A program made the translations under genes and the position numbers. Of a stretch of DNA of 48,489 bases, positions 16,784 to 36,181 are shown piece after piece. Origin of the DNA: a virus. Location: IMG/VR virus record IMGVR_UViG_3300008110_000102, positions 1 to 48,489 of that record, one strand, 5' to 3'. Position 1 is the stretch's first letter; the number at the start of each line of letters is the position of its first letter. Under the pieces are notes generated by a model. The model did no database searches, was not told the DNA's origin, and saw nothing but the letters and a program-made list of their open reading frames with translations.

Positions 16784-19009
16784 ATGAGAGTACCAAGCCC
16801 TATCGGCAAATTACAGGATGTAGCACCCCAAGTTATTAGTAGAACTGGTATTATTAATAATAATAACCGTGGTACAATCTCAGGTTCTTCAGATAACATA
16901 GCACCCTTTTTACCTAATGGTACTATAACTAAAACTTCACTTGGGTCAGTTTGGTTTGACGGTGTTGATGACTCTTATAGCTATGCCGATAGTGCTAGCT
17001 TTGATTTCCCCGATGGTGATTGGTTTTTAGCTGCTTTAATACAAGTAGAAGTATCAGCTTTAACACAATACATAGCCTCTATAGGTACACAAGGTGGACC
17101 TAATAACGTACAACTCTACATGGTTAGTGGTGTAATAAACGTACAGGTACGAGGTCCCGCTAGTAACACTGGTGTTTATCTTGGTACTGCTACCCTTACT
17201 GCACCAGGCTGGTATGTAGTTGGATTACAGAGAAATGCTGGTACTATTGAGGTGTTTACAGCACCATTAAGTGGTACAATAACCAAGACTACAACTACCA
17301 GTACAGCATGGTCACCCTTTAGTGGTATAACGCCATCAGGGACTCATCAGTGTGGTATAAGAAGCTCATCACCTACTGGTACTCAGTTTAAAAGTAATAT
17401 AGCATACCTTGTGAAAGGTGCTGGTACACTTAGTGATGCAGACGTTAATAATTTAGCTTCATTAACTTTACCTACAGCATTAGGTAAATCTTTATCCTTC
17501 TACACTGAGTTCGATGAAGCATTACCCACTATACCTGACCTTACTGGTAATGGTAATACTGCTACAAGAGTTAGTAACCCAATGACACGAGGTGGACCTG
17601 ACCTAGCTGGTCAAGCTGTTCGCATTAATGGGGTATCCAATAGAGCTTGGGGTAGAGTATATCAAAGAGCTAGTGGAGGTAACAGCAGAGCTATAACCTT
17701 TACTGGTACCTATGCTGGCTCACCTACTAGCCTACAAGCAAGAATAATTGGCTTAAATGATGTAGAGGTTGTAACTTGGGCCAACTGCATAGCTACTGGT
17801 GTAGGTACCTGGTCTATCACTATTACAGTGCCTCAAGGCTTATCATATTATATACTTGAGGTAAGGCATACCAATGATATAACTCAATTCGCTAAAACAT
17901 TTTACCCTTTTGGTGTAGGTGAAGTGATATTAGGTATTGGCCAAAGTAACTTTAAGCTTTTAGCTACTGGTGCTGGTGATTCTGGTATTACTGCGGATGT
18001 TCACAAGGTATGTTATTATAATGGCGGTAGTGGTGGCCCCGCTTATAGGGATGATAGGATAACCAGCTTAGGGGCTGGTATAAAGAGTTTAGCAGTACTT
18101 GCTCAGGCTAACATCGGTGCAAACATACCAGTAATGATTGCTGATGCCTCAACTAGTGGTTCAGCCCTACTGGGTACACCTAACACCTGGTCAGATTTAG
18201 GTGGAACTGTATGGGCAACCTTAAACAGTACACTAGCTGCTGTAGGCGATGTTGGTGCTATAGTGTGGAACCAGGGTGAAGCTGATGCTAGTGCTAATGC
18301 CACAAAGACTAACTACTTTAATGGACTAGTTACTCTTGTAAGCAATGTAAGACTAGCAATAGGTCGTAATGCTGCATCATGCCCATTCTTTTGTTGGAGC
18401 TTAGGTCATGCCGGTACCTTACAAGGTGGTAACTGGGGGGGTATAAGAGAAGCACACCTTGATGCTATTGCTAGTATACCAAACTCCAGATATACAGGAC
18501 CAGCTCACGACCTTGACCTTGCCGATGCACTACATTATCTTACATCTGAACGTGGCTATTATGACCTAGGTAGAAGGATAGCTCATGCTATCTCTAACTA
18601 CTATAACCCTGTGGGTATACCAACTAATATGGATGGACCATTCATCACAGGTGCTACAAGGTCAGGTAGTACTATTACCATAACCTTTAACCTTAATAGC
18701 AATGCCTCAATTTCTATACCATCAGCATCGCCAGCTAACATTGATGGCTTAGAAGTAAGAAGGTCTGGTACACTACAGACTATAAGTAGTTGGGTTATAT
18801 CTGGTAACCAGCTTACTCTTACTATGGCTGCAGCTGTAAATGCTGGGGACACTGTAGATTATGCTGCTAGGGACCTTATTCGTACCAATACTGGTGCAGC
18901 TTATGCATTAACTGATAACGACAACATGATATATGGTAGTAATATAGTTACCGGAAGCCCAAGAGGTGTACCGGTAAGACCAATGCCAACAGCGATAGTA
19001 CTAGTGTAA
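16784..19009 (+). CDS. Lectin-like plus SGNH esterase protein
   Basis: A 741-residue protein. Residues about 30-230 look like a laminin-G/concanavalin-like lectin domain ('VWFDGVDDSYSYADSASFDF', then 'GTIEVF'). Residues about 375-600 are an SGNH/sialate O-acetylesterase-type domain: 'GIGQSN' with the predicted nucleophile Ser388, 'VWNQGEAD' near 492-499, and Asp581-x-x-His584 in 'LADALHY'. The C-terminal 130 residues are beta-rich, Ig- or fibronectin-like. Such enzymes remove acetyl groups from surface polysaccharides. It is encoded between the capsid and connector genes, not with tail fibres, so it may be displayed on the head, though delivery to the tail cannot be excluded. Confidence 0.75.
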   Translation: MRVPSPIGKLQDVAPQVISRTGIINNNNRGTISGSSDNIAPFLPNGTITKTSLGSVWFDGVDDSYSYADSASFDFPDGDWFLAALIQVEVSALTQYIASIGTQGGPNNVQLYMVSGVINVQVRGPASNTGVYLGTATLTAPGWYVVGLQRNAGTIEVFTAPLSGTITKTTTTSTAWSPFSGITPSGTHQCGIRSSSPTGTQFKSNIAYLVKGAGTLSDADVNNLASLTLPTALGKSLSFYTEFDEALPTIPDLTGNGNTATRVSNPMTRGGPDLAGQAVRINGVSNRAWGRVYQRASGGNSRAITFTGTYAGSPTSLQARIIGLNDVEVVTWANCIATGVGTWSITITVPQGLSYYILEVRHTNDITQFAKTFYPFGVGEVILGIGQSNFKLLATGAGDSGITADVHKVCYYNGGSGGPAYRDDRITSLGAGIKSLAVLAQANIGANIPVMIADASTSGSALLGTPNTWSDLGGTVWATLNSTLAAVGDVGAIVWNQGEADASANATKTNYFNGLVTLVSNVRLAIGRNAASCPFFCWSLGHAGTLQGGNWGGIREAHLDAIASIPNSRYTGPAHDLDLADALHYLTSERGYYDLGRRIAHAISNYYNPVGIPTNMDGPFITGATRSGSTITITFNLNSNASISIPSASPANIDGLEVRRSGTLQTISSWVISGNQLTLTMAAAVNAGDTVDYAARDLIRTNTGAAYALTDNDNMIYGSNIVTGSPRGVPVRPMPTAIVLV

Positions 19010-23743: not shown

Positions 23744-26478
23744 CCACTGAGAGATTTGATATTATCGTTAGGGAAGATGGTGCTAAGGAAGTAGACAGGA
23801 GGATCCGTAACATCGGTTCTAGCGCTAAAGATACTGGTAATGCAGTATCTAAACTCAATAACCTTCTTAGGGGTGTGATAGCTGGTGGCATTGTTGAGAA
23901 GTTAAGACAATATGCTGACACCTATACTAATCTACAGAACAGATTAAAACTTGTCACCACTAATACCGCTCAATTAACTGTAGTTCAACAAAAGCTATTT
24001 GATATATCACAAAGGACTAGATCCTCACTCCCAGCTAACGTTGAATTGTTCACAAGACTAGCTTTTGCAACTAAAGAGCTTGGTGTTTCACAGGGTGAAT
24101 TACTGGGATTAACTGAAAGAATTAACAAGGCGATTGTTATCTCTGGTGCTAATACTCAAGAGGCTCAAAACGCACTTATTCAGTTCTCACAAGGTTTATC
24201 ATCAGGGGCATTACAGGGTGAAGAACTTAGGTCAGTTCTTGAACAGTTACCAAGGGTAGCTGATGTTATCGCTAAGCAGTTGGGTGTACTTAACCCTAAT
24301 GTGGATATTACAAGGGCTGCTTTAAAGAAACTTGGTTCAGAAGGCAAGATTACCGCTGAGGTAGTACTAGCCGCATTCAAGAACTTTGGTGGTACTCTTG
24401 ATGAGGAATTTAGCAGGACTAGTGCTACTATCGGTCAATCACTATTACAGCTTAATAACGCCTTCCTTAAAAGCTTTGGTGAATTAGATGCTAAGATAGG
24501 AATATCAAGTGGTATAGTTGCCGCTATTGACTTTATAAGGCAGAACCTAGATACACTTGGCCGTATAGCTATAGCAACAGGCTTAGCTATTTCTGTAGGG
24601 TTAGTTGCTAATGGCTTAAAAAAAGCTGTGATTGCTCTTAAGGATTTAGCTTTCTACATTGTAAAAAACCCATTTGCCTTCTTAGCTCAATCCATTGTAG
24701 TGGCTACTAGCTTACTTGCGGCATTCTCTGATAGGATTACTATTAGTAAAGATGGCCTTGTAACACTTCAAGACTTTGGCAAAGCAGCCTTTGATGTTCT
24801 TATAGGTGGTACTACTGAAGCAACTAAAGCTACTAAAGACTCCACTGATGCAGTCAACCAACTGTCTATAGATGGCTCAAGTGCCTTTGACACAATAGGT
24901 AAATTTGTTATAGGTGTAGTTGCTGCATTAGTTAATGCTAAAGATTCTGTTGGTATCTTCTACGAGACCATGGTACTTGGCTACAGACAGATAGTTGTAT
25001 CATTTGGTAATCTACCAACCGATTTTAAAATCATCTTTACTGAGGCTATCAATGCAGCCATACAAATTGTAGAAGATGGTGTAAACAGAATAGGAAAGTC
25101 AATAAGCTCAGTTACTGAATTTGTAGGAGCAGGCTCTATAGCTCAACAGTCACTCGGTAGGCTATCAGTTAAGGATGATAGAAAAAGCGTTGTAAATGAC
25201 CCTAGAGCTATAGAGGCATTTAACAGGATAAAAGAACTACAGAATAATAAAGACTCCAGGGTTGATAATCTTAACAAGCTATTTGATAGTATAAAAGATA
25301 GAGCTAAAGAGATTAGCAGTAAACGTGTCTCAGATGCCGCTAAAAACAAAGCTGATGAAGAAGCTGCTACTAAAGCCTTAAATGACGCGCTTGCGGCTGC
25401 TACTAAGCCAACAGCCTTAGCTGGAGGTAATGGCTCAGGCGGAGGTAACGGTGGAGGCGGTGCTGCTAATGACAATCAACAACGCATCAGTCTAAAAGAT
25501 ACCCTAGCTGATATTCAACAACAAGGTAAGCTATTACAACTTAATAACCGTGAACGTGAAGTTCAGAACCAGCTTATTAACATTGAGAACCAATTTAAGC
25601 AAGATGGTATACCATTAAATGAGAGTGAAAAACAGTTACTTGAAAGCAGACTTAAAAACCTACAAGCTTTAAATGACCAAGCTCAGGTATATGATGAGAT
25701 TAAAGGCCCACTGCTTGAAAACCAGCAAACTCAAGAGGCCTTAAATAAGCTTTATGAAGATGGTAAAATTTCGGTTGATGAATACAGCCAAGCTATGAAC
25801 AATCTTAAAGTCCAAGCACTTGAGACTGATAGGACACTAGAGGGTGGGCTACAAAGAGGTCTTGGTAAAATCTCTGAAGAATTTGGTAATGTGTCCAATG
25901 TAGCAGAAGACCTTGTAGTTAATGCTTTTGGTAAAGCCGAAGATGCATTAGTCCAATTTGTAGAAACTGGTAAGCTGAATGTTAAAGACCTTGTAAGCAG
26001 CATCACTGCTGACTTATCAAAGCTCGCTGTACGTCAGCTAATCACAGCACCACTTGCTGGTGCATTAGGATTAGGCGGTGGAGGTGGTGCTGGCGGTATT
26101 GCTTCATTATTTGGTGGAGGCGGCGGAGGTAGTCCATTAGAGACAGCATCATCACCAGCTGGTAATCTATCTTATACTGCAGCTAGTAGTGCAGCTGACT
26201 CAGGTGGCTTCCTATCAAGCCTATCAGGGCTATTTGGCTTTAAAGATGGTGGCCAATTCCAGGTTGGCGGACAAGGTGGAACTGATAGTCAACTTGTAGC
26301 ATTTAAAGCTAGCCCTGATGAAACAGTAACAGTTACTAAACCAGGTCAAGGTAACCAAGGCGGAAACATTACCATAAACATACAGACACCTGATGCAGCA
26401 TCCTTCCAAAAATCACAAGGCCAAGTATTAAGCCAGTTTGCTACCAACCTTGCAAGAACTAAGAAGAGAATGACATAA
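23740..26478 (+). CDS. Tape measure protein
   Basis: A 912-residue protein. The N-terminal region (about 35-190) matches the TIGR02675-type tape measure N-terminus: 'YADTYTNLQNRLKLVT', 'FDISQRTRSSLPANVELFTR', 'ALQGEELRSVLEQLPRVAD'. Hydrophobic segments lie near 275-330 and 385-400, which may cross the membrane during DNA entry. A Gly-rich linker near residues 565-580 separates long coiled coil regions, and a second Gly-rich stretch (about 780-800) precedes the C-terminus. Its length would give a tail of roughly 130-140 nm using the usual 0.15 nm per residue. It overlaps the DUF2460 gene by one base. Confidence 0.93.
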   Translation: MTTERFDIIVREDGAKEVDRRIRNIGSSAKDTGNAVSKLNNLLRGVIAGGIVEKLRQYADTYTNLQNRLKLVTTNTAQLTVVQQKLFDISQRTRSSLPANVELFTRLAFATKELGVSQGELLGLTERINKAIVISGANTQEAQNALIQFSQGLSSGALQGEELRSVLEQLPRVADVIAKQLGVLNPNVDITRAALKKLGSEGKITAEVVLAAFKNFGGTLDEEFSRTSATIGQSLLQLNNAFLKSFGELDAKIGISSGIVAAIDFIRQNLDTLGRIAIATGLAISVGLVANGLKKAVIALKDLAFYIVKNPFAFLAQSIVVATSLLAAFSDRITISKDGLVTLQDFGKAAFDVLIGGTTEATKATKDSTDAVNQLSIDGSSAFDTIGKFVIGVVAALVNAKDSVGIFYETMVLGYRQIVVSFGNLPTDFKIIFTEAINAAIQIVEDGVNRIGKSISSVTEFVGAGSIAQQSLGRLSVKDDRKSVVNDPRAIEAFNRIKELQNNKDSRVDNLNKLFDSIKDRAKEISSKRVSDAAKNKADEEAATKALNDALAAATKPTALAGGNGSGGGNGGGGAANDNQQRISLKDTLADIQQQGKLLQLNNREREVQNQLINIENQFKQDGIPLNESEKQLLESRLKNLQALNDQAQVYDEIKGPLLENQQTQEALNKLYEDGKISVDEYSQAMNNLKVQALETDRTLEGGLQRGLGKISEEFGNVSNVAEDLVVNAFGKAEDALVQFVETGKLNVKDLVSSITADLSKLAVRQLITAPLAGALGLGGGGGAGGIASLFGGGGGGSPLETASSPAGNLSYTAASSAADSGGFLSSLSGLFGFKDGGQFQVGGQGGTDSQLVAFKASPDETVTVTKPGQGNQGGNITINIQTPDAASFQKSQGQVLSQFATNLARTKKRMT

Positions 26479-27077
26479 TGACTTTCCATGATATACGATT
26501 CCCAGAAGATATTAGTTATGGTGCTCAAGGTGGACCAGAGTTCAATACCACTGTAGTAACTATGAAGTCAGGTCAAGAAAGCAGAAACCAGAACTGGATA
26601 GAGTCAAGAGTAAGATGGGATATTAGCACTGCTATAAAAGATAAGGGTGATGCTGAGATACTTCTTGCATTCTTTAGAGCTAGAAAAGGTAGAGCTCATG
26701 CATTTAGATTTAAAGACCACTTAGACTATATAGCTACTCTACAGCCTATAGGTACTGGTAACTCCGTACTTACAACCTTTCAACTATCTAAAACCTACAA
26801 TGATGGATTAATATCTACTAACCGTGTTATCACAAGGCCAGTAGCTGGGACTGTAAGGATTTATTTTAATGGTGTAGAACAACTAAGTGGCTGGACAGTA
26901 AACAGTACTACAGGTGTGGTTACTTTCTCTTCTGCACCTGGTACTGGTGTAGCTATTACAGCTAGCTTTGAATTTGATATACCAGCAAGATTTGATACTG
27001 ACCAGCTAAGAGTGACCATACAAGGATATGATGCTTTTATAGCGGACTCAATAAACATTGTGGAGATAAGGGAATGA
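26478..27077 (+). CDS. Distal tail protein, DUF2460
   Basis: A 199-residue protein of the DUF2460 (TIGR02217-type) family. The opening 'FHDIRFPEDISYGAQGGPEF' with 'TTVVTMKSGQESRNQNW' is diagnostic, and 'FFRARKGRAHAFRFKDHLDY' follows. These proteins form the distal tail ring that joins the tube to the tip in alphaproteobacterial siphoviruses and gene transfer agents. It overlaps the next gene by four bases. Confidence 0.93.
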   Translation: MTFHDIRFPEDISYGAQGGPEFNTTVVTMKSGQESRNQNWIESRVRWDISTAIKDKGDAEILLAFFRARKGRAHAFRFKDHLDYIATLQPIGTGNSVLTTFQLSKTYNDGLISTNRVITRPVAGTVRIYFNGVEQLSGWTVNSTTGVVTFSSAPGTGVAITASFEFDIPARFDTDQLRVTIQGYDAFIADSINIVEIRE

Positions 27078-27937
27078 CCCTAAGTATACCATCAGCTATA
27101 CAAGCTACATTAGATAGTGGTTTTACTACCCTCTGCACACTTATCCTTATAACTAGAGAAGATACCACAGAGTTTGCCTTCACCGACTTGGATAGAGACA
27201 TAGTGTTTGATGGCAAGACCTATAAAAGTAAAGGTGGCTTCAGCTCATCAGCTATACAGTCAAGCTCAGGTTTATCTGTAGATAACTTAGACTTTGATGC
27301 TGTAATAGATGATGTAACTATTACTCAGGATGACCTTAAAAGAGGCCTGTTTAATAATGCAGAGGTATTGGTATATCTTGTAGATTATAATAACTTGGGT
27401 AGTGGTGATAAAGTCATATTACGCCATGGCTCACTTGGCGATGTAATCATTAGAGATGATGGTTCATACTACGCAGAGATAAGAGGTCTTAGCAATAGGC
27501 TACAAACTCGTATTGGTTTAGTCTATACACCTTTGTGCAATGCAAGACAATTAGGAGACACTAGATGCAAGAAATCGCTGACGGGTCTAAGTTTTGTAAC
27601 ATCAGTACTAGCAGTAACTAATAACCGCACCTTTACACACAACACGTCAGTACAGAGTACTGGCTTTTTTAACTATGGTTTAGTTGAGTGGTTATCTGGT
27701 TCATCAAATGTTGGTGCAAAGATGGAGATTAAAAGCTACACAGTATCAGCTGGTGTTGGCACTTTTGTGCTTCAACTGCCGATGCCTAAAGATATTGTAG
27801 CTGGTAATAGCTTTAGGGCTATAGCTGGTTGTGATAGAAAGTTTGAGACCTGTAGAGATAGGTTCAGCAATGTGGCTAACTTTAGGGGCTTTCCTCATTT
27901 ACCTGGCCTCGATGAAATGTTAAAGTCTGGTGCATGA
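27074..27937 (+). CDS. Baseplate hub protein, DUF2163 (BR0599-like)
   Basis: A 287-residue protein of the DUF2163 / TIGR02218-type family. It has the usual 'LCTLILITREDTTEFAFTDL' N-terminal strand pair, 'VDNLDFDAVIDD', and a Cys-containing C-terminal half ('YTPLCNARQLGDTRCKKSL', 'AGCDRKFETCRDRF', 'NFRGFPHLPG'). The four or more Cys in the last part bind a metal cluster in the homologous gene transfer agent hub. It is followed by the partner NlpC/P60 gene as in relatives. Confidence 0.93.
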   Translation: MTLSIPSAIQATLDSGFTTLCTLILITREDTTEFAFTDLDRDIVFDGKTYKSKGGFSSSAIQSSSGLSVDNLDFDAVIDDVTITQDDLKRGLFNNAEVLVYLVDYNNLGSGDKVILRHGSLGDVIIRDDGSYYAEIRGLSNRLQTRIGLVYTPLCNARQLGDTRCKKSLTGLSFVTSVLAVTNNRTFTHNTSVQSTGFFNYGLVEWLSGSSNVGAKMEIKSYTVSAGVGTFVLQLPMPKDIVAGNSFRAIAGCDRKFETCRDRFSNVANFRGFPHLPGLDEMLKSGA

Positions 27938-28371
27938 TAAATTCATCCGAAATAGTAAGGGTTGCAAGAGAATGGATTGGTACTCCATATCATCATCAGG
28001 CGTCACTTAAAGGTATAGGCTGTGACTGCATCGGCTTGCTTGTGGGTGTATGGAGAGAGCTTATAGGTAATCTACCTGTAGAGCCACCTGTATACTCACC
28101 TCAGTGGCATCTACATCAGCAAGAGAGCCAACTGATTAAAGTACTTGAAGAAGTATATGGCTTTAAGAAAATAAACTGCAGTAACCCACCTATGGGTTCT
28201 GTATTATGTATAGGACTTAAGAAAGGTCCAGCTCATCATGCTGCTATAGCTACTGGTGACAATACCTTTATACACTCATTCATAACAGCTAAGAAAGTTG
28301 TTGAAGTTACACTTGATAGTAACTGGAGAGATAGAACTCATGCAGTACTAGTATATCCGGAGGTAGTGTAA
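27934..28371 (+). CDS. NlpC/P60 cysteine peptidase of the tail tip
   Basis: A 145-residue peptidase of the TIGR02219-type phage family. 'GTPYHHQASLKGIGCDCIGL' contains the nucleophile Cys32 in 'CDCIGL', and the catalytic His lies in 'PAHHAAI' (His101 or His102). It cleaves peptidoglycan cross-links locally when the phage injects DNA. Gene overlaps with neighbours on both sides (4 bases and 1 base) show tight coupling with the hub genes. Confidence 0.92.
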   Translation: MINSSEIVRVAREWIGTPYHHQASLKGIGCDCIGLLVGVWRELIGNLPVEPPVYSPQWHLHQQESQLIKVLEEVYGFKKINCSNPPMGSVLCIGLKKGPAHHAAIATGDNTFIHSFITAKKVVEVTLDSNWRDRTHAVLVYPEVV

Positions 28372-28997
28372 TGGCACAGTTAACACTAAGCTTGGCTGGT
28401 GCTGCAGTTGGTGCATATTTTGGTGGACCAGTTGGTGCAAGGATAGGCTTTGCTGCTGGGTCATTATTAGGTGGAGCACTATTCCCTGGTGATGGTCCAC
28501 CTGACCAAGTGAATGAAGGTCCAAGGCTAAGTGATACACGAGTACAAAGTAGTGCTTATGGCCAATACCTGCCTAAGCCTTATGGTACAGTAAGAGTATC
28601 AGGTAATGTGATATGGGCTAGCCCTGTTAGGGAAGTCATACAAGAGTCAAGTCAATCCGTTGGCGGTAAAGGTGGTGGAGGAAGCGATATAACCTCAAGG
28701 ACATACCTTTACTACAGGTCTTTTGCTGTAGGTGTTTGTTTAGGGCCGATAACCTCTTATAAAAAGATATGGGGTAATACCGAAGTCATATATGATGCAG
28801 CTACCGCTGAGTCAACCTATGACCATACAAGATACCTTGGTGATGAGACACAAGTGGCCGACTCAATAATGGAGTCATTTGAGGGTGTGGGTAATGTGCC
28901 ATCATACAGAGGCCTAACCTATGTAGTCTTTAATGATATGCTTATCTCCAACTTTGCTAACTCTATACCCTCTTTAAGTTTTGAGATAGAGGTTTAA
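28371..28997 (+). CDS. Tail tip protein, N-terminal J/GTA-like part
   Basis: A 208-residue protein. It begins with a Gly/Ala-rich hydrophobic stretch (about 5-40), then 'VQSSAYGQYLPKPYGTVRVS' followed by 'GNVIWASP', the characteristic opening of large tail host-specificity (J-like) proteins of the gene transfer agent group. It ends with 'MESFEGVGNVPSYRGLTYVV' and 'LPSLSFEIEV'-type strands. In relatives this part is the N-terminus of one long protein of over 1000 residues; here the chain stops and three more genes follow before the family resumes at 32030. Confidence 0.8.
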   Translation: MAQLTLSLAGAAVGAYFGGPVGARIGFAAGSLLGGALFPGDGPPDQVNEGPRLSDTRVQSSAYGQYLPKPYGTVRVSGNVIWASPVREVIQESSQSVGGKGGGGSDITSRTYLYYRSFAVGVCLGPITSYKKIWGNTEVIYDAATAESTYDHTRYLGDETQVADSIMESFEGVGNVPSYRGLTYVVFNDMLISNFANSIPSLSFEIEV

Positions 28998-30638
28998 ATG
29001 GCTATCCTTGCTATTGGTCTTGTAGGTGCTGGTATTGGCTCTAGTGTAGGTATGACCGCACTCGGCTTTGCATTGGGTACAGCTATAGGCTCTATGCTAT
29101 TCCCAGGCAATGAAGCTAACTCAGTTAAGCCTGAAGATGGCAAATTAAGAATAGGTGACAACTTAGTACAGACAAGTTCTTATGGTGCATATCTACCTGT
29201 AGGTTATGGATTATATCGTGCAGCTGGCAATGTTATTTTTGCAAGCCCTATAGAACAAGACATGGAATATGTGGTAAATGCTACAGTAGCTTCTTCTGGT
29301 AAAGGTATAGCTGGTGGGGCATCTGCAGCAAGGCCACTAAAAAGTGAGAGAAGGTTCTTTAAATCTAGTATAGCTATAGCGTTCGCTGAAGTACCACAAC
29401 ATAGGCTTGAGACTATAGTCTACAGTACAACCCAAGAAAGTCAAGAGGATGGTGATACTGTAAACCTTACTGAGAGAAGAAGCTTTGTTGGTATTAGAAG
29501 ATTATGGCTTAACAATTATCTTGTAAGAGATGGCAGATCTAATCAGCTTGAGCCACCTGATATCCTTACTATAGAAGAATACCTTGGCGATGAAAGCCAA
29601 AGACCTAGCCCAACTATGGAAGCTTTTAAAGGTGTAGGCAATGTACCATCATACAGGGGTTTATGCTATGTGGTATTACCTGACTTAGAGCTTACACCAT
29701 TTGGTGATAATTTACCATCAGCTAATGCGGAGCTATATGAAAGAGCTGATAGAATAGACAATCTAGAAGAAGGTGTTGAGGGTCTTACCCTTGATAGCAA
29801 CAACTTCCTGTGGGTTACAAGTCATACTAAAAGAGTTATACAAAAGGTTGATGCTATTACACTAGAGGTAGTAGCTCGTGTAGGTAGAGATACTCAAACA
29901 CCTGGTGAGTACCTAGGCCTATTACCTCCGCACCCTTGGAGGTGTGATGCAAGTCCTGATGGTCAGTATATATGGATTGTTCACAAGGGCGATAAAAAGC
30001 TAACTCGTGTAAATATAGCTGATAATACTTGGGTATCTTATGATGTAGATAAGAAATATGCTATGGATGTTGCTACAGATGCCAGCAATAATGTATGGGT
30101 TACTTATCCATTCTACAATAAGGTTACCAAGTATAATTCAAGTGGTGTTAAACAGCTTGATATAACTATTAATGATGCTCCATGGACTATAAGCTATGAC
30201 CAGGAGTATGACTGCTTATGGGTTGGTGGTAACAGACAAGTCCATAAAATAAAGAACGACCTATTAGATGTTAGCATAACAACTCAGAGGTACTTTCACT
30301 CAGACTGTGGATATGGTACTCGTAATTCGGACTTATGGTCATCATCTAGTGGTAATGATGTAGCAGTATTAATAGATAGAGATACTGATACACTTAGAAG
30401 GACAAGAAATACACCTACATACCCTGTAGGCTGTTCATCTAACTATAGTGATGAATATGGCACAATCTACATAGCATCCTATGCTGGTAACCGGTTAAGA
30501 GCTTTTAGTTTTCAAGCGAGAGGTCATATAAATGCTGGTACTATTGCTTTCCCAGGTCAATGCCTAGCTATGCCAAACGGAAAGTGTTTTGTAACTAACA
30601 CGAGGCTTGGTATAGTTCAACAAATAGACACGAGATAA
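28998..30638 (+). CDS. J-like N-terminal paralogue fused to a beta-propeller
   Basis: A 546-residue protein. Residues 1-240 repeat the fold and motifs of the preceding gene ('VQTSSYGAYLPVGYGLYRAA', 'GNVIFASP', 'MEAFKGVGNVPSYRGL'), so they arose by duplication. Residues about 250-546 form an NHL/YVTN-type beta-propeller: repeated 'NNFLWVTSHTKRVIQKVD', 'GQYIWIVHKGDKKLTRVN', 'NNVWVTYPFYNKVTKYN', 'YDCLWVGGNRQVHKI'. Such propellers bind or cleave carbohydrate in phage tail spikes. The N-terminal part is likely a virion anchor for the propeller. It has its own start directly after the preceding stop. Confidence 0.75.
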   Translation: MAILAIGLVGAGIGSSVGMTALGFALGTAIGSMLFPGNEANSVKPEDGKLRIGDNLVQTSSYGAYLPVGYGLYRAAGNVIFASPIEQDMEYVVNATVASSGKGIAGGASAARPLKSERRFFKSSIAIAFAEVPQHRLETIVYSTTQESQEDGDTVNLTERRSFVGIRRLWLNNYLVRDGRSNQLEPPDILTIEEYLGDESQRPSPTMEAFKGVGNVPSYRGLCYVVLPDLELTPFGDNLPSANAELYERADRIDNLEEGVEGLTLDSNNFLWVTSHTKRVIQKVDAITLEVVARVGRDTQTPGEYLGLLPPHPWRCDASPDGQYIWIVHKGDKKLTRVNIADNTWVSYDVDKKYAMDVATDASNNVWVTYPFYNKVTKYNSSGVKQLDITINDAPWTISYDQEYDCLWVGGNRQVHKIKNDLLDVSITTQRYFHSDCGYGTRNSDLWSSSSGNDVAVLIDRDTDTLRRTRNTPTYPVGCSSNYSDEYGTIYIASYAGNRLRAFSFQARGHINAGTIAFPGQCLAMPNGKCFVTNTRLGIVQQIDTR

Positions 30639-30640
30639 TT

Positions 30641-32029
30641 ATGGGCGGTAAAGCTGAATACTACTTTGGTACAGAAGGCTCCCAGCCTATAGGCTCGCTA
30701 GACAGAGCTGCACTATTTTTAGAAGGTAATGACGAGCTACTAAACTTTTATGATACTCAAAGAAAACGTGTCCAAAAGTTTGCTGACAGCTATCTACAAG
30801 ATGCTGCTAACCCTGTAGTAACGATGATTTCAGCTGGTTCAACCACTACTACACCTGAGGTTGCTAAGACACGACTGGGCTTTCAAGACTTCAGACGTAT
30901 GCAAGTATTAGTACAAGGTTGGAAGACCTTTAATAATACTGACTACCGAGACCATGCTATGCAGATGATACTTGATTGGGCTGATATTAATATACCTAAT
31001 GGACACCCTATTAACCAGACACACCTTGAAGGTCTGCATTATGCTCTTAGGGATTTAGCACCTAATGGTACAGCTGGTGAATTTACAACCACCGATTACA
31101 ATACAAGAGTTAAGCCTTGGCTAGAACTTATAAGAGATGCTAGTGAAGCTTGGGCATTCCCACCAGAGCCAGGCGGTGGAACACTATTATATGGAAACCA
31201 CTATACCCATCACTACATGCAACTTTATATGTGTTATAGGTCATTAGGTGAGACAGCCTCAGCTAGTGCACTTTTAACTTCTGTAGATACTCACGCTACT
31301 GAGAATTTCCCATTTGGGAATAGCAGTATAACTTATCCACAAGTCTTTACTATAGTCAGTCTTAACCAAGGGAGTAAATGGTATGAGTTCACAGGAAACG
31401 AAACTAGTCGCTTTGTCACGGGCGTTACTTTTAATGTCATTAGTAGTACTGGGAATAACGGCCTATATACTTGTGCCTCTAATTCATCCTTTATCGGTGG
31501 AAAAACAAGAGTCTTTGTCTCAGAGACCATTAGCTCTGCCATTGCTGACGGCTCCATAAGCGAGATATTCCAGACACCACCTCACCAGATGCCCAGAGCT
31601 GCAGTTGATGCTGGCGAAAGCATTGACTTTATCCGTAGGGATGCCTTTCATTATCATACCTATGATATACAGCCATGGCTTACGCTAGCATTAGCTGAAG
31701 GTTCAAGCAGATACCAAACCAAAATGACTGAAGCATGGGATTGGTGGTGGACTAAAGTTTTGGATGTATCTGACCTACACACCGAGTTTACAAATAGCTC
31801 AGATGACTTTGACCAACTCCGGTGGGAGGGTTCTCGCTCTGAGTATCTACAGCCTGGTACCTTTTGGCTACCTGATGAAGCATCTAGGACAATTTGCCTA
31901 TATTATCAATACCAGTTAACTTTAAACCCAAGTTATGTTATAAATGATGCTATATTAGCTATGGCATTAAGAAGCGATAGGATTAATACAGAGTGGCCTT
32001 ACTGGTTTAGATTTACGTTAGGTGTTTAG
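30641..32029 (+). CDS. Alginate-lyase-like tail protein
   Basis: A 462-residue protein that looks like an alpha/alpha-toroid polysaccharide lyase (alginate lyase, PL5-like). 'FQDFRRMQVLVQGWKTF' and 'HLEGLHYALRDLAP' are helices in the toroid; 'YGNHYTHHYMQLYMC' has the Asn-His pair (about 185-187) and 'RRDAFHYHTYDIQPW' (about 330-345) the Arg/His/Tyr cluster expected in the active groove. A Thr/Ser-rich beta insertion (about 230-300) interrupts it, perhaps for virion attachment. It would degrade capsular or exopolysaccharide. Its place inside the tail tip block suggests a virion depolymerase. Fold assigned by pattern only. Confidence 0.65.
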   Translation: MGGKAEYYFGTEGSQPIGSLDRAALFLEGNDELLNFYDTQRKRVQKFADSYLQDAANPVVTMISAGSTTTTPEVAKTRLGFQDFRRMQVLVQGWKTFNNTDYRDHAMQMILDWADINIPNGHPINQTHLEGLHYALRDLAPNGTAGEFTTTDYNTRVKPWLELIRDASEAWAFPPEPGGGTLLYGNHYTHHYMQLYMCYRSLGETASASALLTSVDTHATENFPFGNSSITYPQVFTIVSLNQGSKWYEFTGNETSRFVTGVTFNVISSTGNNGLYTCASNSSFIGGKTRVFVSETISSAIADGSISEIFQTPPHQMPRAAVDAGESIDFIRRDAFHYHTYDIQPWLTLALAEGSSRYQTKMTEAWDWWWTKVLDVSDLHTEFTNSSDDFDQLRWEGSRSEYLQPGTFWLPDEASRTICLYYQYQLTLNPSYVINDAILAMALRSDRINTEWPYWFRFTLGV

Positions 32030-33661
32030 ATGGCTTTACTTTCCAACGTAATCGTTGATATTTGTCAGAGAGCTGGGTACGACCCTTCAGAGATAGACGT
32101 AAGCTTAATAACAGGCACTGTAGATGGATTTGTGCTTTCTAACAGGTCTACAGCAAGGTCAATGATAGAAGAGCTTCAGAAGGCCTTTTTATTTGAAGGT
32201 ATAGAGAGTGGCTCAACCATTAAGTTTGTGCCTATCAATCAAGCATCCAGTGTATCCATTAACATTGATGAACTTCTACCTATGGGTTCAGGTCAAGATG
32301 CTAAGTACCTTGAGATAGGTCGTATAGATACTAATGAGTTACCTAAGACACTGTCTATTAACTATATAGCTAAGACAGCCGACTATCAACAGGGTACTCA
32401 AGAGGCTATAAGGCAGATTGCTGACTCAGGTGAAGCTGAGACTGTATCAGTAGCTGTAGTGATGGATAATGATGTAGCTAGGCAGCTAGTTGAGAAGATG
32501 CTCTATATACGATGGACAAAGAGTGTATCATTTAGCTTCTCACTACCTATAAAATATCTTAGACTTGAGCCATCAGATGTTATCTCACTTGTAGACACAA
32601 GCATCACACATAACATAAGAATTTTAAAGAAACAGTTCTCAGGCCAAACACTAATCTTTGAAGGTGAAAGAATAGATGGTGAAGCTTTCACTCAAACTAT
32701 TACTGGCGGTAATATCTCAGTTGTAGGTGGTGTAGTATTTGACCCAGGTGATAGCTCATTGTTCTTATTGGATATACCAGTCTTAAGAGAAACCGACAAC
32801 AACGCTGGCTTCTATATAGCTTCCGGTAGGGATAAGTCAACATGGAGAGGTGCTCAGGTATATAGGTCAACTGATGATATAACCTATAACCTATTATCAA
32901 GTATACCAGTACCAACTATTGCTGGTCAAGCACTTACAGCATTACCGACTGGTCCACATAACTATATGGATAGGGTCAACACTGTAGACGTACAGCTACT
33001 ATTCGCTGACCAATTAACCTCTACAAGTATAGATAACCTGTTGAACTCAGTTAATAGCTGTGTGTTAGGTGATGAGCTAATTCAGTTTCAAACAGCCACA
33101 CTTATAGGCACTCGCACTTATAGATTGTCTAATCTGTTAAGGGGTAGGCTTGGTAGTGAACAGTTTAAAGGGTCTCATGTAATAGGTGAGAGATTTGTTA
33201 TGCTGTCACCAGGCGGTAACCTTGATAGGGTACTCGACTCATCCAGCTCACTTGGCATCAGTAAATACTATAAGCCAGTATCTGTAGGCCAAGACATAAT
33301 GGACGTTACTGCTTCAACCTTTACTAATAGTGGTAAGGGTTTAAAACCCTATGCACCATGCCAATTTAAGTCAGTACAACAATTATCAGGTGATTTTGTT
33401 TTAACATGGACAAGACGTACCAGATTTAATGGTGGATGGCTTAATAACTCAGACGTACCACTTAATGAAGAGAGAGAAGAATACACTTTGAATATCTATA
33501 ATGGCTTAGTCATAGTAAGGACCGCTATTGTAAGTTCACCCACTTTTACTTATACTGCTAGTATGCAAGTATCAGATTTTGGCTCAACACAGTCAACTAT
33601 CAGTGCCAAGGTTGCTCAAAATAGCGCTATCATAGGTGCTGGTTATTATGAAAGCTTATAG
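32030..33661 (+). CDS. Tail tip protein, central and C-terminal J/GTA-like part
   Basis: A 543-residue protein. 'LSNVIVDICQRAGYDPSEID' at the N-terminus matches the middle of gene transfer agent-type host specificity proteins, followed by 'SRTVDGFVLS'-like 'TGTVDGFVLSNRSTARSMIE', then 'RILKKQFSGQTLIFEGERID' and 'TYRLSNLLRGRLGSE'. These are the domains that normally follow the N-terminal part now encoded at 28371. The protein therefore completes a split tail tip protein. An Ig/Fn-like C-terminal end is present. Translation starts right after the lyase stop. Confidence 0.82.
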   Translation: MALLSNVIVDICQRAGYDPSEIDVSLITGTVDGFVLSNRSTARSMIEELQKAFLFEGIESGSTIKFVPINQASSVSINIDELLPMGSGQDAKYLEIGRIDTNELPKTLSINYIAKTADYQQGTQEAIRQIADSGEAETVSVAVVMDNDVARQLVEKMLYIRWTKSVSFSFSLPIKYLRLEPSDVISLVDTSITHNIRILKKQFSGQTLIFEGERIDGEAFTQTITGGNISVVGGVVFDPGDSSLFLLDIPVLRETDNNAGFYIASGRDKSTWRGAQVYRSTDDITYNLLSSIPVPTIAGQALTALPTGPHNYMDRVNTVDVQLLFADQLTSTSIDNLLNSVNSCVLGDELIQFQTATLIGTRTYRLSNLLRGRLGSEQFKGSHVIGERFVMLSPGGNLDRVLDSSSSLGISKYYKPVSVGQDIMDVTASTFTNSGKGLKPYAPCQFKSVQQLSGDFVLTWTRRTRFNGGWLNNSDVPLNEEREEYTLNIYNGLVIVRTAIVSSPTFTYTASMQVSDFGSTQSTISAKVAQNSAIIGAGYYESL

Positions 33662-33669
33662 GACTCAAA

Positions 33670-35295
33670 ATGGTAAGTTATAGCGCAAGACACCAAGTAC
33701 CCTTCTTAGAGGTTGCTCAATCACAAAAAGAGACTACTCACAATGAGGCATTAAGAGTCTTTGATGTTATTGAGAACATGCTCATTAAGGATAGAGACTT
33801 AGCAACACCACCTGGTTCACCGGTTAATGGTGATACCTACCTTATTGCAGCTAGCCCTACAGGTGCCTGGGTAGGTCAAGCTGGTAAAATTGGTTTTTAT
33901 TATGATGGCTGGAGTTTTATTACACCATTTGAAGGCCTACAAGGTTGGGTTGATGATGAAGAAAAGTTTGTTATCTACAGTGATGGGCTTTGGAGAGAAG
34001 TTGCTTCATCGTTAAGTATGGGTGTCTCAAGTGTCTTTACTACAGACCAGGTAAATGTTCTTGCATCAGATGAGGGCAGTATGAAGCTTGTAGATACTGG
34101 CTCTGATGGTGCTATTGTGGTATTGCCACAGATATCGACTATTAGTGAAAGAGGCTCAGTCTCAGTAAAGAAGACGAACTCAGATGATGCAGTCTTGGTT
34201 GTTCATGGATTTCCACTTAACCTATTAACTTATGCCAATGACCTTAGCAATGCTGCATGGACTAAAACCTTTTGTACCATAGCAACCAATGTTGGTACTG
34301 ACCCAAGTGGTGCAGCTACGCTTGATAAAATACAAGAGGACAACACAACTAACCTACATGAGATAGCTCAAGTCTATGCTAAGCCATTTGGTATCACAAG
34401 ATTAGCTGCCAGCTTTGTCGTACAGGCTGTAGAGAGAGATGTAGTATTTGTAGCACTCGATAGAGGCAGTGGTACTCATAGAGCTGAGATGAGAGTAACA
34501 CTATCAACCAATACAGTAAGTAATACAGCTAGTGCTGGTGATGCTACGTTTGTTAGTGGTACCTGTGTTAACTTACCAAACAGTAATAAGCTTATAACCA
34601 TTGTAGCTGATGTAACCAATGCTGCTAACAACTGGTCTACAAGACTAAGACTGTTCAATGGTTCATCCACCTATCTTGGTGTAACTGGTAATGGTGTTTA
34701 TGCCGGTAGGGCACAAATGGGTTTCTATGCACCTTTACCAACTTGGAGTGCAGCACAAGATACTACAGCAACTAATGCTATAGAAACTATTGATGGTCTT
34801 ACAACCCGTGAGCTAAGAAGCTCAGGTGCAACCATACTAGCATTCAGGGGTTCTACTCAATGGCACACTGTTACCTCTGACCCAAGTGCCGACTCAGGTA
34901 CCTTTACACCAACAGTAAGTGGCTCAACTGTATCAGGCTCTCAGACCTATGGTACAAGGGTCGGTCATTGGACTCGAAGGGGTCGAATTATTGATTTCTT
35001 TGTAAGTGTTCAGGTTAGCACACTTGATGCAGCTACTTCAGGCAATCTTAGGATTACGGGTTTACCTTTTGCAGCACTCAATGTATCAGGGCTTCAGCAA
35101 CCCGTTACTATAAACGTACGCAGTAACCTTACACTTACTGCTGGTTATACTATGTTCTCTGCATACTTAACCAATAACAGCTCAATAATCAACTTAGCAC
35201 AGATGGGTAGTAACGTAGCTCAAGCATTGCTACAAGCTTCAGCTGCTGCTAGTGGACTAACCATCGATATCCAAGGCAGCATAAGGATTAATTAG
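33670..35295 (+). CDS. DUF2793 tail fibre protein
   Basis: A 541-residue protein. Residues about 5-120 are a clear DUF2793 domain: 'VPFLEVAQSQKETTHNEALR', 'TPPGSPVNGDTYLIAASPTG', 'AWVGQAGKIGFYYDGWSF'. This domain attaches fibres to the tail tip in alphaproteobacterial phages. The rest is Thr/Ser/Asn-rich beta sequence, including a carbohydrate-binding-like part near 180-360 and a C-terminal trimer-type domain, so it probably contacts the host surface. It is the last gene before lysis. Confidence 0.85.
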   Translation: MVSYSARHQVPFLEVAQSQKETTHNEALRVFDVIENMLIKDRDLATPPGSPVNGDTYLIAASPTGAWVGQAGKIGFYYDGWSFITPFEGLQGWVDDEEKFVIYSDGLWREVASSLSMGVSSVFTTDQVNVLASDEGSMKLVDTGSDGAIVVLPQISTISERGSVSVKKTNSDDAVLVVHGFPLNLLTYANDLSNAAWTKTFCTIATNVGTDPSGAATLDKIQEDNTTNLHEIAQVYAKPFGITRLAASFVVQAVERDVVFVALDRGSGTHRAEMRVTLSTNTVSNTASAGDATFVSGTCVNLPNSNKLITIVADVTNAANNWSTRLRLFNGSSTYLGVTGNGVYAGRAQMGFYAPLPTWSAAQDTTATNAIETIDGLTTRELRSSGATILAFRGSTQWHTVTSDPSADSGTFTPTVSGSTVSGSQTYGTRVGHWTRRGRIIDFFVSVQVSTLDAATSGNLRITGLPFAALNVSGLQQPVTINVRSNLTLTAGYTMFSAYLTNNSSIINLAQMGSNVAQALLQASAAASGLTIDIQGSIRIN

Positions 35296-35718
35296 ATGTT
35301 TGATGTAATCACCTTAGCCACTACTGTTATTGATAAGCTATTCCCAGATAAGACTGAGGCGGCAGCTCAAAAGGTAAGACTTGTAGAGCTACAGCAGAAT
35401 GGTGAATTAAAAGAGATAGAAATGTCTCTACAGGATGTAAAGAGTGCTAGGGATAGGGAGATAGCTGTTAAAGACAAGATGCCTGCAATCTTAGCATTAC
35501 TGTCTCTTGCACTGTTTGCCTTCACCTTATATGCACTGTTTACAAACATGCTTAGCAAGGAGACAAGCGAGGTAGCCTATATGTTGTTAGGTACTGTTAC
35601 AAGTCTTATAACCACAGTATTTGGCTACTATTTTGGTACAACACGAAACAGCGGCCTTAAGACAACAATGATGGCTGATATGCAAAAAGCAGCTGATTAT
35701 AGGAGGAAAGATGTTTAA
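35296..35718 (+). CDS. Holin
   Basis: A 140-residue protein with an N-terminal amphipathic, charged region and two clear membrane spans at about residues 62-82 and 93-112. It resembles the 'holin of 3TMs for gene transfer release' family from alphaproteobacterial elements. The gene overlaps the endolysin gene by eight bases and directly follows the tail fibre gene, as expected for a lysis cassette. Oligomers would open the inner membrane to release endolysin. Confidence 0.78.
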   Translation: MFDVITLATTVIDKLFPDKTEAAAQKVRLVELQQNGELKEIEMSLQDVKSARDREIAVKDKMPAILALLSLALFAFTLYALFTNMLSKETSEVAYMLLGTVTSLITTVFGYYFGTTRNSGLKTTMMADMQKAADYRRKDV

Positions 35719-36181
35719 TCTATCAAGTCGCTCTATAGCTAAACTAAGTGGTGTAAATCCACTTCTTGTTAGCATAGTAAAGCAAGCTATAAAAACTACT
35801 ACTGTAGATTTTGGCATCACTTATGGGCTAAGGACTAAAGAGGAACAAGCTGAACTAGTTAAAGCTGGTAAAAGTAGAACAATGAACTCAAGGCATTTAA
35901 CCGGCCACGCTGTAGACCTAGCTGCTTACGTCTATAATGTATTAACATGGGAAACAAAGTACTACTATGATATAGCTAGAGCTTTAAGGTCAGTAGCTAT
36001 AGAACAAAACATCCCTGTAGTATGGGGTGGTGTTTGGGATAGGTTATTAAACGACCTATCAGAGGACCTGGAGAGTGAAGTAAAAGAGTATCACTCAAGA
36101 TATAAGGCTGCAAACCCTAAGAAAAAGCCTCTCTTTGATGGTCCACATTTTGAACTATCTCGAGAGGCTTTCCCAGCTTAG
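35711..36181 (+). CDS. Endolysin, M15 peptidase (L-Ala-D-Glu type)
   Basis: A 156-residue zinc peptidase like T5 endolysin/CwlK. 'GLRTKEEQAELVKAGKSRT' is the typical substrate loop, 'SRHLTGHAVDL' provides the zinc His and Asp (about residues 60-70), and 'DGPHFEL' near residue 146-150 provides the third ligand. It cuts the peptide stem of peptidoglycan. No signal peptide, so export depends on the holin. AGGAGG precedes the start. Its last bases overlap the last bases of the convergent gene at 36178. Confidence 0.92.
   Translation: MFNLSSRSIAKLSGVNPLLVSIVKQAIKTTTVDFGITYGLRTKEEQAELVKAGKSRTMNSRHLTGHAVDLAAYVYNVLTWETKYYYDIARALRSVAIEQNIPVVWGGVWDRLLNDLSEDLESEVKEYHSRYKAANPKKKPLFDGPHFELSREAFPA

Follow-up and report, generated by a model that had tools for sequence, protein, structure and literature searches.

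A putative split version of the RcGTA-type tail-tip hub, with a beta-propeller and a lyase-like chain encoded between its halves

The RcGTA megatron is a single polypeptide whose domains are given in PMC7296036 as iris/penetration (residues 1-46), adhesin-like (47-229), peripheral (230-744), central (745-984) and fibre-binding (985-1304). The window analyzed here, a virus record of 48,489 bases taken at full length, raises the question of how such a hub might be built from several chains. Its baseplate block (~26.5-35.3 kb) follows the RcGTA-type gene order, running from a DUF2460 protein through a gp84-type hub protein and an NlpC/P60 peptidase to four ORFs, which we call A, B, C and D, and then to a DUF2793 fibre (Table 1). 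The original prediction had placed four ORFs here with gaps of 0-2 bases. The ORF coordinates (A 28371-28997, B 28998-30638, C 30641-32029, D 32030-33661) confirm both points: the spacers are 0 bases between A and B, 2 bases between B and C and 0 bases between C and D, and the first base of A is the last base of the upstream peptidase gene. By eye, purine-rich stretches resembling Shine-Dalgarno sequences lie ahead of A, B and D, with a weaker one ahead of C.

Table 1. Features of the baseplate block, in window coordinates.
Feature	Position	Strand	Evidence
DUF2460 protein, RcGTA distal-tail type	26478..27077	+	PF09343, E 8e-72
gp84-type baseplate hub protein	27074..27937	+	PF09931, PF09356
NlpC/P60 tail peptidase	27934..28371	+	PF00877, E 3e-6
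A: free-standing megatron N-terminal half (iris/penetration + adhesin-like)	28371..28997	+	PHROG 4271 1-203; 6tba 1-201
B residues 1-250: second, diverged copy of megatron N-terminal half	28998..29747	+	
B residues 251-546: beta-propeller in the TIM barrel's place	29748..30638	+	profile matches
C: alginate-lyase-like chain, 462 aa	30641..32029	+	PF05426
C beta insert, about residues 231-311 (~80 residues)	31331..31573	+	
C motif RRDxxHYHxYD, residues 332-342	31634..31666	+	
D: megatron central + fibre-binding half	32030..33661	+	PF13550, PF23666; 6tba 766-1302
DUF2793 tail fibre	33670..35295	+	PF10983

Elsewhere in the window, the product of 35296-36181, beside an M15 peptidase, bears a weak likeness to the GTA 3TM holin (PF11351, 23.0 bits; cut-off 24.8), a hint that the lysis genes may be GTA-like as well.

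We mapped the ORFs onto the megatron structures 6tba and 8gtc, using domain limits as they are described in PMC7296036 and PMC10276861. A profile of the A family aligned with residues 1-201 of the solved RcGTA megatron 6tba and a profile of the D family with residues 766-1302. These positions assign the iris and adhesin-like domains to A and the central and fibre-binding domains to D. Against PHROG 4271, a 1309-aa tail protein, A matched positions 1-203 (E 2e-72), the N-terminus of B positions 1-224 (E 4e-39) and D positions 752-1302 (E 3e-129); the PHROG profile matches gave positions 204-751 no counterpart among the window ORFs. GTA_TIM (PF13547) had no match anywhere in the window record. 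Judged from these alignments, the hub of this phage is a split version of an RcGTA-type megatron with the peripheral TIM barrel missing, and the cut falls at a domain boundary, between peripheral and central domains. The proposal of a tip protein encoded as several chains with modules interposed was borne out to this extent, since A, B and D are separate ORFs here and the gene is continuous in relatives.

B had been described as a duplicate of the first part fused to a propeller, and this description held. Its N-terminus shares 31% identity with A over 249 columns (E 7e-31), and the remainder gave profile matches to Pizza designs, PknD and virginiamycin B lyase, with E values down to 2e-22. 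The Pfam Vgb_lyase model reached 16.1 bits against a cut-off of 50, and we therefore claim no Vgb function for B. AF2 models of B (pLDDT 43) and C (pLDDT 52) were poor and were taken only as hints.

A hub gene in pieces could also be a sequencing artefact or a gene in decay. Other split megatrons turned up in our survey (L035, L040, the second copy of L054, L058, L131, L136 and L139), some of which may be sequence errors and some real, so that the window lineage may not be the only one with a cut megatron. Five of these (L035, L040, L058, L136, L139) may be frame errors, which would speak for an artefact. In the window lineage, however, ORF limits are identical in independent contigs at 70-85% identity, and dN/dS between the window and L005 is low (A 0.11, B 0.09, D 0.06), which points to purifying selection and argues against decay. 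For C, synonymous change between the same two loci was saturated over the whole chain (dN 0.11), and residues 312-462 gave a dN/dS of 0.03. On the conserved ORF limits and the low dN/dS, artefact or decay was rejected for this lineage as extremely improbable.

In the relatives with a continuous gene, A, an insert and D form one ORF, with a TIM barrel or another module between the halves. We tabulated the insert in 74 loci that encode A and D in a single ORF, out of 86 dereplicated D rows (141 before rows within 75% identity were dropped). The gap between the halves measured 5-16 aa in 16 of the 74 and held a module of 284-466 aa in 37; in the other 21 it spanned 484-782 aa, and these inserts form one BLAST-linked set that contains an annotated GTA TIM-barrel protein. 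Because 16 single-gene relatives lack any insert, GTA_TIM does not define the wider megatron family. Insert type changes at least six times on the D tree (83 rows). Thus, the site is variable across the family, while the split form with B-C-D seems to have been inherited in a single lineage.

Surveys of what fills this site were mostly blank. Pfam searches of 36 inserts from single-gene relatives returned scattered weak matches and nothing else, and two insert groups had no match among PDB profiles. The insert group of Microcystis phage Mwe-JY26 could be likened to the B propeller (hhalign probability 68, E 5e-5), and another group showed no likeness to it. A propeller is therefore claimed for B alone and suggested for the Mwe-JY26 group. 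Two tandem megatron genes were also seen, in L017, L018 and L054 (giant Caulobacter and Brevundimonas phages and one IMG/VR contig).

Besides the window, C occurs in nine IMG/VR contigs (L001, L002/L008, L003, L004/L009, L005, L137/L174, L175, L176 and L177), with B directly upstream in all nine and D next in the eight that are not cut there. The order B-C-D was also found in three alphaproteobacterial genomes. The search of bacterial genomes gave matches in 2 of 317 genomes of the order and in 8 of 385 of the class, three of them weak. The Defluviicoccus locus L185 holds A, B, C and D plus the fibre, and genome G109 has two copies of B-C-D. In G327, B is followed by ~0.7 kb with a tRNA-Ser gene (L227:8391-8480) and then by C and D, within a prophage-like tail module. 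Genome G638 has C-D at a contig start plus a second copy in a decayed prophage (L231), in which a ParE-type toxin ORF (PF05016, E 6e-10) separates a shortened C from a partial D; by eye the toxin ORF has an antitoxin-like neighbour, for which Pfam gave no match (L231:1560-2477). Counting the window, and among loci that have hub genes and sufficient DNA ahead of C, B precedes C in all 14, 13 times adjacent and once across the 0.7 kb gap; D is the next gene after C in all 14 loci that are not cut at that point. The decayed L231 copy is the exception to both rules.

Genomes G558 and G460 carry C alone among chromosomal genes. In the contigs concerned (L228:2725-4191 and L229:1928-3346), C has the beta insert and no hub gene accompanies it; an MFS transporter lies near both, and TopA and RimM are near C in one of them. 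These would be orphan or domesticated copies.

Which chain supplies the first half for D? The original prediction made A the first half and D its continuation. The window, L003, L005, L008, L009 and L185 have a separate A, which is partial in the cut contig L001 and frame-broken in L177. Six loci (L137, L175, L176, L213, L214 and L227) have no separate A, and there the NlpC gene is followed by B, C and D. These six make B-C-D the core unit, with B and D as the minimal two halves and A as an added copy. The partner of D is thus most simply, and probably, B, and A an extra copy. The competing arrangement, in which A and D are the two hub halves and B and C are accessory chains between them, B docking by its N-terminal copy, has several points in its favor: A matches the canonical half better than B (245 versus 135 bits), which favors A-D pairing where both exist; A is under constraint similar to that on B, by the dN/dS values above; and A immediately follows the peptidase gene, at the place where the megatron of relatives begins. 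The six loci without A count against it. Moreover, in nine contigs of another lineage (L153, L155-L158, L160, L161, L163, L166) a lone A precedes an intact A'-TIM-D gene; an A of this kind is thus not necessarily the half that belongs to the hub. We consider A-D pairing unlikely.

In the A tree (71 chosen rows), the separate A rows group together as a clade (support 99). A single clade of B N-termini had a p-AU of 0.11, and A and B together a p-AU of 0.23. The lone A of the nine A'-TIM-D contigs groups with its own A' (support 92) in a tree from which duplicate loci of one contig had been dropped, and that duplication is apparently independent of the one in the window. For D, the halves of nine C-bearing rows, L185 included, fall into one clade (support 91, not starred) after removal of the long-branched rows L052, L062 and L066; the clade of C-bearing loci without L185 has support 64 and is likewise not starred. 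Because these D halves share one clade, B-C looks vertically kept. The original prediction of an exchangeable cassette thus survives in part: the site varies across the family, but B and C do not look like a freely moving cassette.

The label "alginate-lyase-like" for C also fared unevenly. In the window, C scored 17.3 bits against PF05426, below the Pfam cut-off of 22.2, and C of L137 missed it as well (21.4 bits), whereas C of L005 (25.4), L009 (23.2) and L185 (26.2) passed. All six C family members that were scanned matched PF05426 at E<=1. A profile of the C-terminal piece of C retrieved 19 loci in bacterial genomes, namely one in Defluviicoccus (48% identity) and 18 others, 13 of which are titled Mucilaginibacter; the three scanned among these 18 (L187, L188, L199) matched PF05426 with E values from 1e-14 to 2e-32. 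Genome contigs searched with a profile of the whole-C alignment yielded no relative. By eye, residues N186, H190, R333, D334, H337, Y338 and Y341 of the window protein are common to most or all cellular rows, as are D342, E382, F383, F390, D391 and R394; the H190 column differs in L188, and H339 differs in L204, a Klebsiella phage protein. The motif residues are ones that we take to be catalytic in PL5-type lyases. Structural searches added little: PDB profile matches of C were not significant (best lyase E 0.88), those made with separate pieces of C gave nothing useful, and Foldseek with the C model found no match at E<=0.001. On the PF05426 matches and the shared residues, C is probably a polysaccharide-lyase-like enzyme related to the cellular PF05426 lyase family.

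C is modelled, at low confidence, as an alpha-helical chain that has one beta insert. This insert is missing from the cellular rows, the Defluviicoccus copy and both G638 copies, and is present in most phage-side copies. It is the least conserved part of C, at 67% identity between the window and L005 against 88-89% elsewhere. It had no PHROG match, and among the protein loci compared it matched only relatives of C. Weak Foldseek matches of the insert (phage Chi tail tip, GH110, phi92 gp150; E 0.24-0.5) were not used.

Two further PF05426 and carbohydrate-related proteins came to light. Klebsiella phage P7641 encodes a 379-aa PF05426 protein (L204:4248-5387, E 1e-34) annotated as hypothetical; its gene is a few genes away from an integrase and precedes large genes on the reverse strand. 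In the window, a 741-aa protein among the structural genes (16784-19009) matches the SASA carbohydrate esterases (PF03629, E 1e-9) and, weakly, a tail-fibre PHROG. It is possibly a second polysaccharide-acting virion protein and might deacetylate the polymer cut by C.

C could instead be catalytically dead and serve as a carbohydrate-binding or spacer subunit. The weak family score in the window fits such a role, and the cellular NNWxSHR motif reads GNHYTHHY in the window protein. However, phage rows and most cellular rows have N186, H190, R333, H337, Y338 and Y341 in common, and conservation is higher in the core of C than in D, at 82% identity to L009 against only 70% for D. A dead subunit is quite unlikely.

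It is less easy to set aside that C is no fixed part of the virion but a depolymerase, soluble or only loosely attached, that is made with the tail genes and set free at lysis, in the manner of the detachable TspA of RcGTA. C is encoded as a chain of its own, it is comparable in order of magnitude and in fold to free cellular enzymes, it stands alone in the two bacterial contigs L228 and L229, and PMC13420450 provides a precedent for a detachable depolymerase that is a chain separate from its RcGTA-type baseplate. On the phage side, though, C lies between B and D in every non-decayed locus and nowhere else in the phage contigs examined. By eye it has no visible signal peptide, unlike the cellular protein L187 with its signal-like N-terminus, and most phage-side copies have the added beta insert. 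We regard free release as somewhat unlikely.

The reading that we favor, with some reservation, is a split hub of B and D in which a propeller replaces the TIM barrel, with the lyase-like C on the tip and A as an extra. It builds on domain identities, gene order, the missing TIM barrel, the relatives and selection, which the comparisons show; from these we infer the multi-chain assembly, the virion location of C, its lyase activity and its substrate. B would give the channel-closing iris/penetration helix and the adhesin-like domain, holding its propeller where the TIM barrel sat. D would give the central and fibre-binding domains, join the distal tail ring and carry the DUF2793 fibre. The two chains would assemble non-covalently, like the lambda hub chains. 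C, made between them, would most likely ride on the tip, perhaps on the propeller, and cut capsule or slime that contains uronic acids when the phage arrives at the cell. A would be an additional iris/adhesin half that may share the ring with B. A stricter form, in which C is stoichiometric between B and D, A and B share channel closure, and polymer cleavage is mechanically coupled to tip opening, is rather doubtful.

By these comparisons, the position of the TIM barrel is a natural insertion site, which is empty or holds a TIM barrel, modules up to 466 aa, or a propeller plus a lyase-like chain. These contents suggest that the position handles cell-surface polysaccharide, an idea that can be tested. 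The function of the peripheral domain in RcGTA-type baseplates has stayed unexplained, according to PMC13420450. In the R4C megatron this domain contains an extra carbohydrate-binding domain, according to the structural description in PMC10276861.

The kind of tail tip is already known. The RcGTA megatron (Rcc01698, 6tba) and the R4C megatron (8gtc) have the iris/penetration, adhesin-like, central and fibre-binding domains found in the window, within the same gene order (DUF2460, gp84-type hub, NlpC/P60, megatron, DUF2793 fibre). Unlike in those systems, the window megatron is split over B and D, comes with an extra A, lacks the TIM barrel, bears a propeller on B and has a lyase-like gene in between. 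The same A and D halves form a single gene in Microcystis phage Mwe-JY26 (XAI96059, 1163 aa), with a 384-aa propeller-like insert, and in Tetraselmis virus S20 (AGH31357, 772 aa), with a 5-aa joint and no insert. Megatron homologs of Rhodobacter phages are listed as single genes in PMC8601537, and Alteromonas phages with RcGTA-like baseplates are described in PMC8265664 as exchanging their fibre tips. Titles, abstracts and selected passages of the papers found by literature searches contained no description of a split megatron with a lyase gene, and the split B-C-D arrangement with propeller and lyase-like gene appears to be new.

The lambda hub (gpL, gpI, gpJ) works alike in that several chains make up one hub; the likeness is one of description, and the components are different. 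PMC13243795 describes that hub as divided over up to three chains, with variation concentrated near the division; its passages mention no enzyme gene between the halves, such as the window has. The cellular PF05426 lyases, for instance those of Mucilaginibacter and Pedobacter, share motifs and overall alignment with C and are set apart from it by the signal-like N-terminus seen in L187 and by the beta insert of most phage-side copies. TspA, as presented in PMC13420450, is a detachable depolymerase that associates with the RcGTA-type baseplate, contacts the peripheral domain of the megatron and lacks homologs in phages with RcGTA-like baseplates. TspA and the putative depolymerase C are both separate chains, and their likeness is one of role only: TspA is described as a trimeric beta-helix encoded outside the virion cluster, whereas the gene for the PF05426-like C lies within the hub operon. 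Should C be bound to the virion, it would represent a depolymerase of PF05426 type, made as a separate chain from a siphophage hub operon, comparable in role to the detachable TspA and, by the published description of the latter, unrelated to it.
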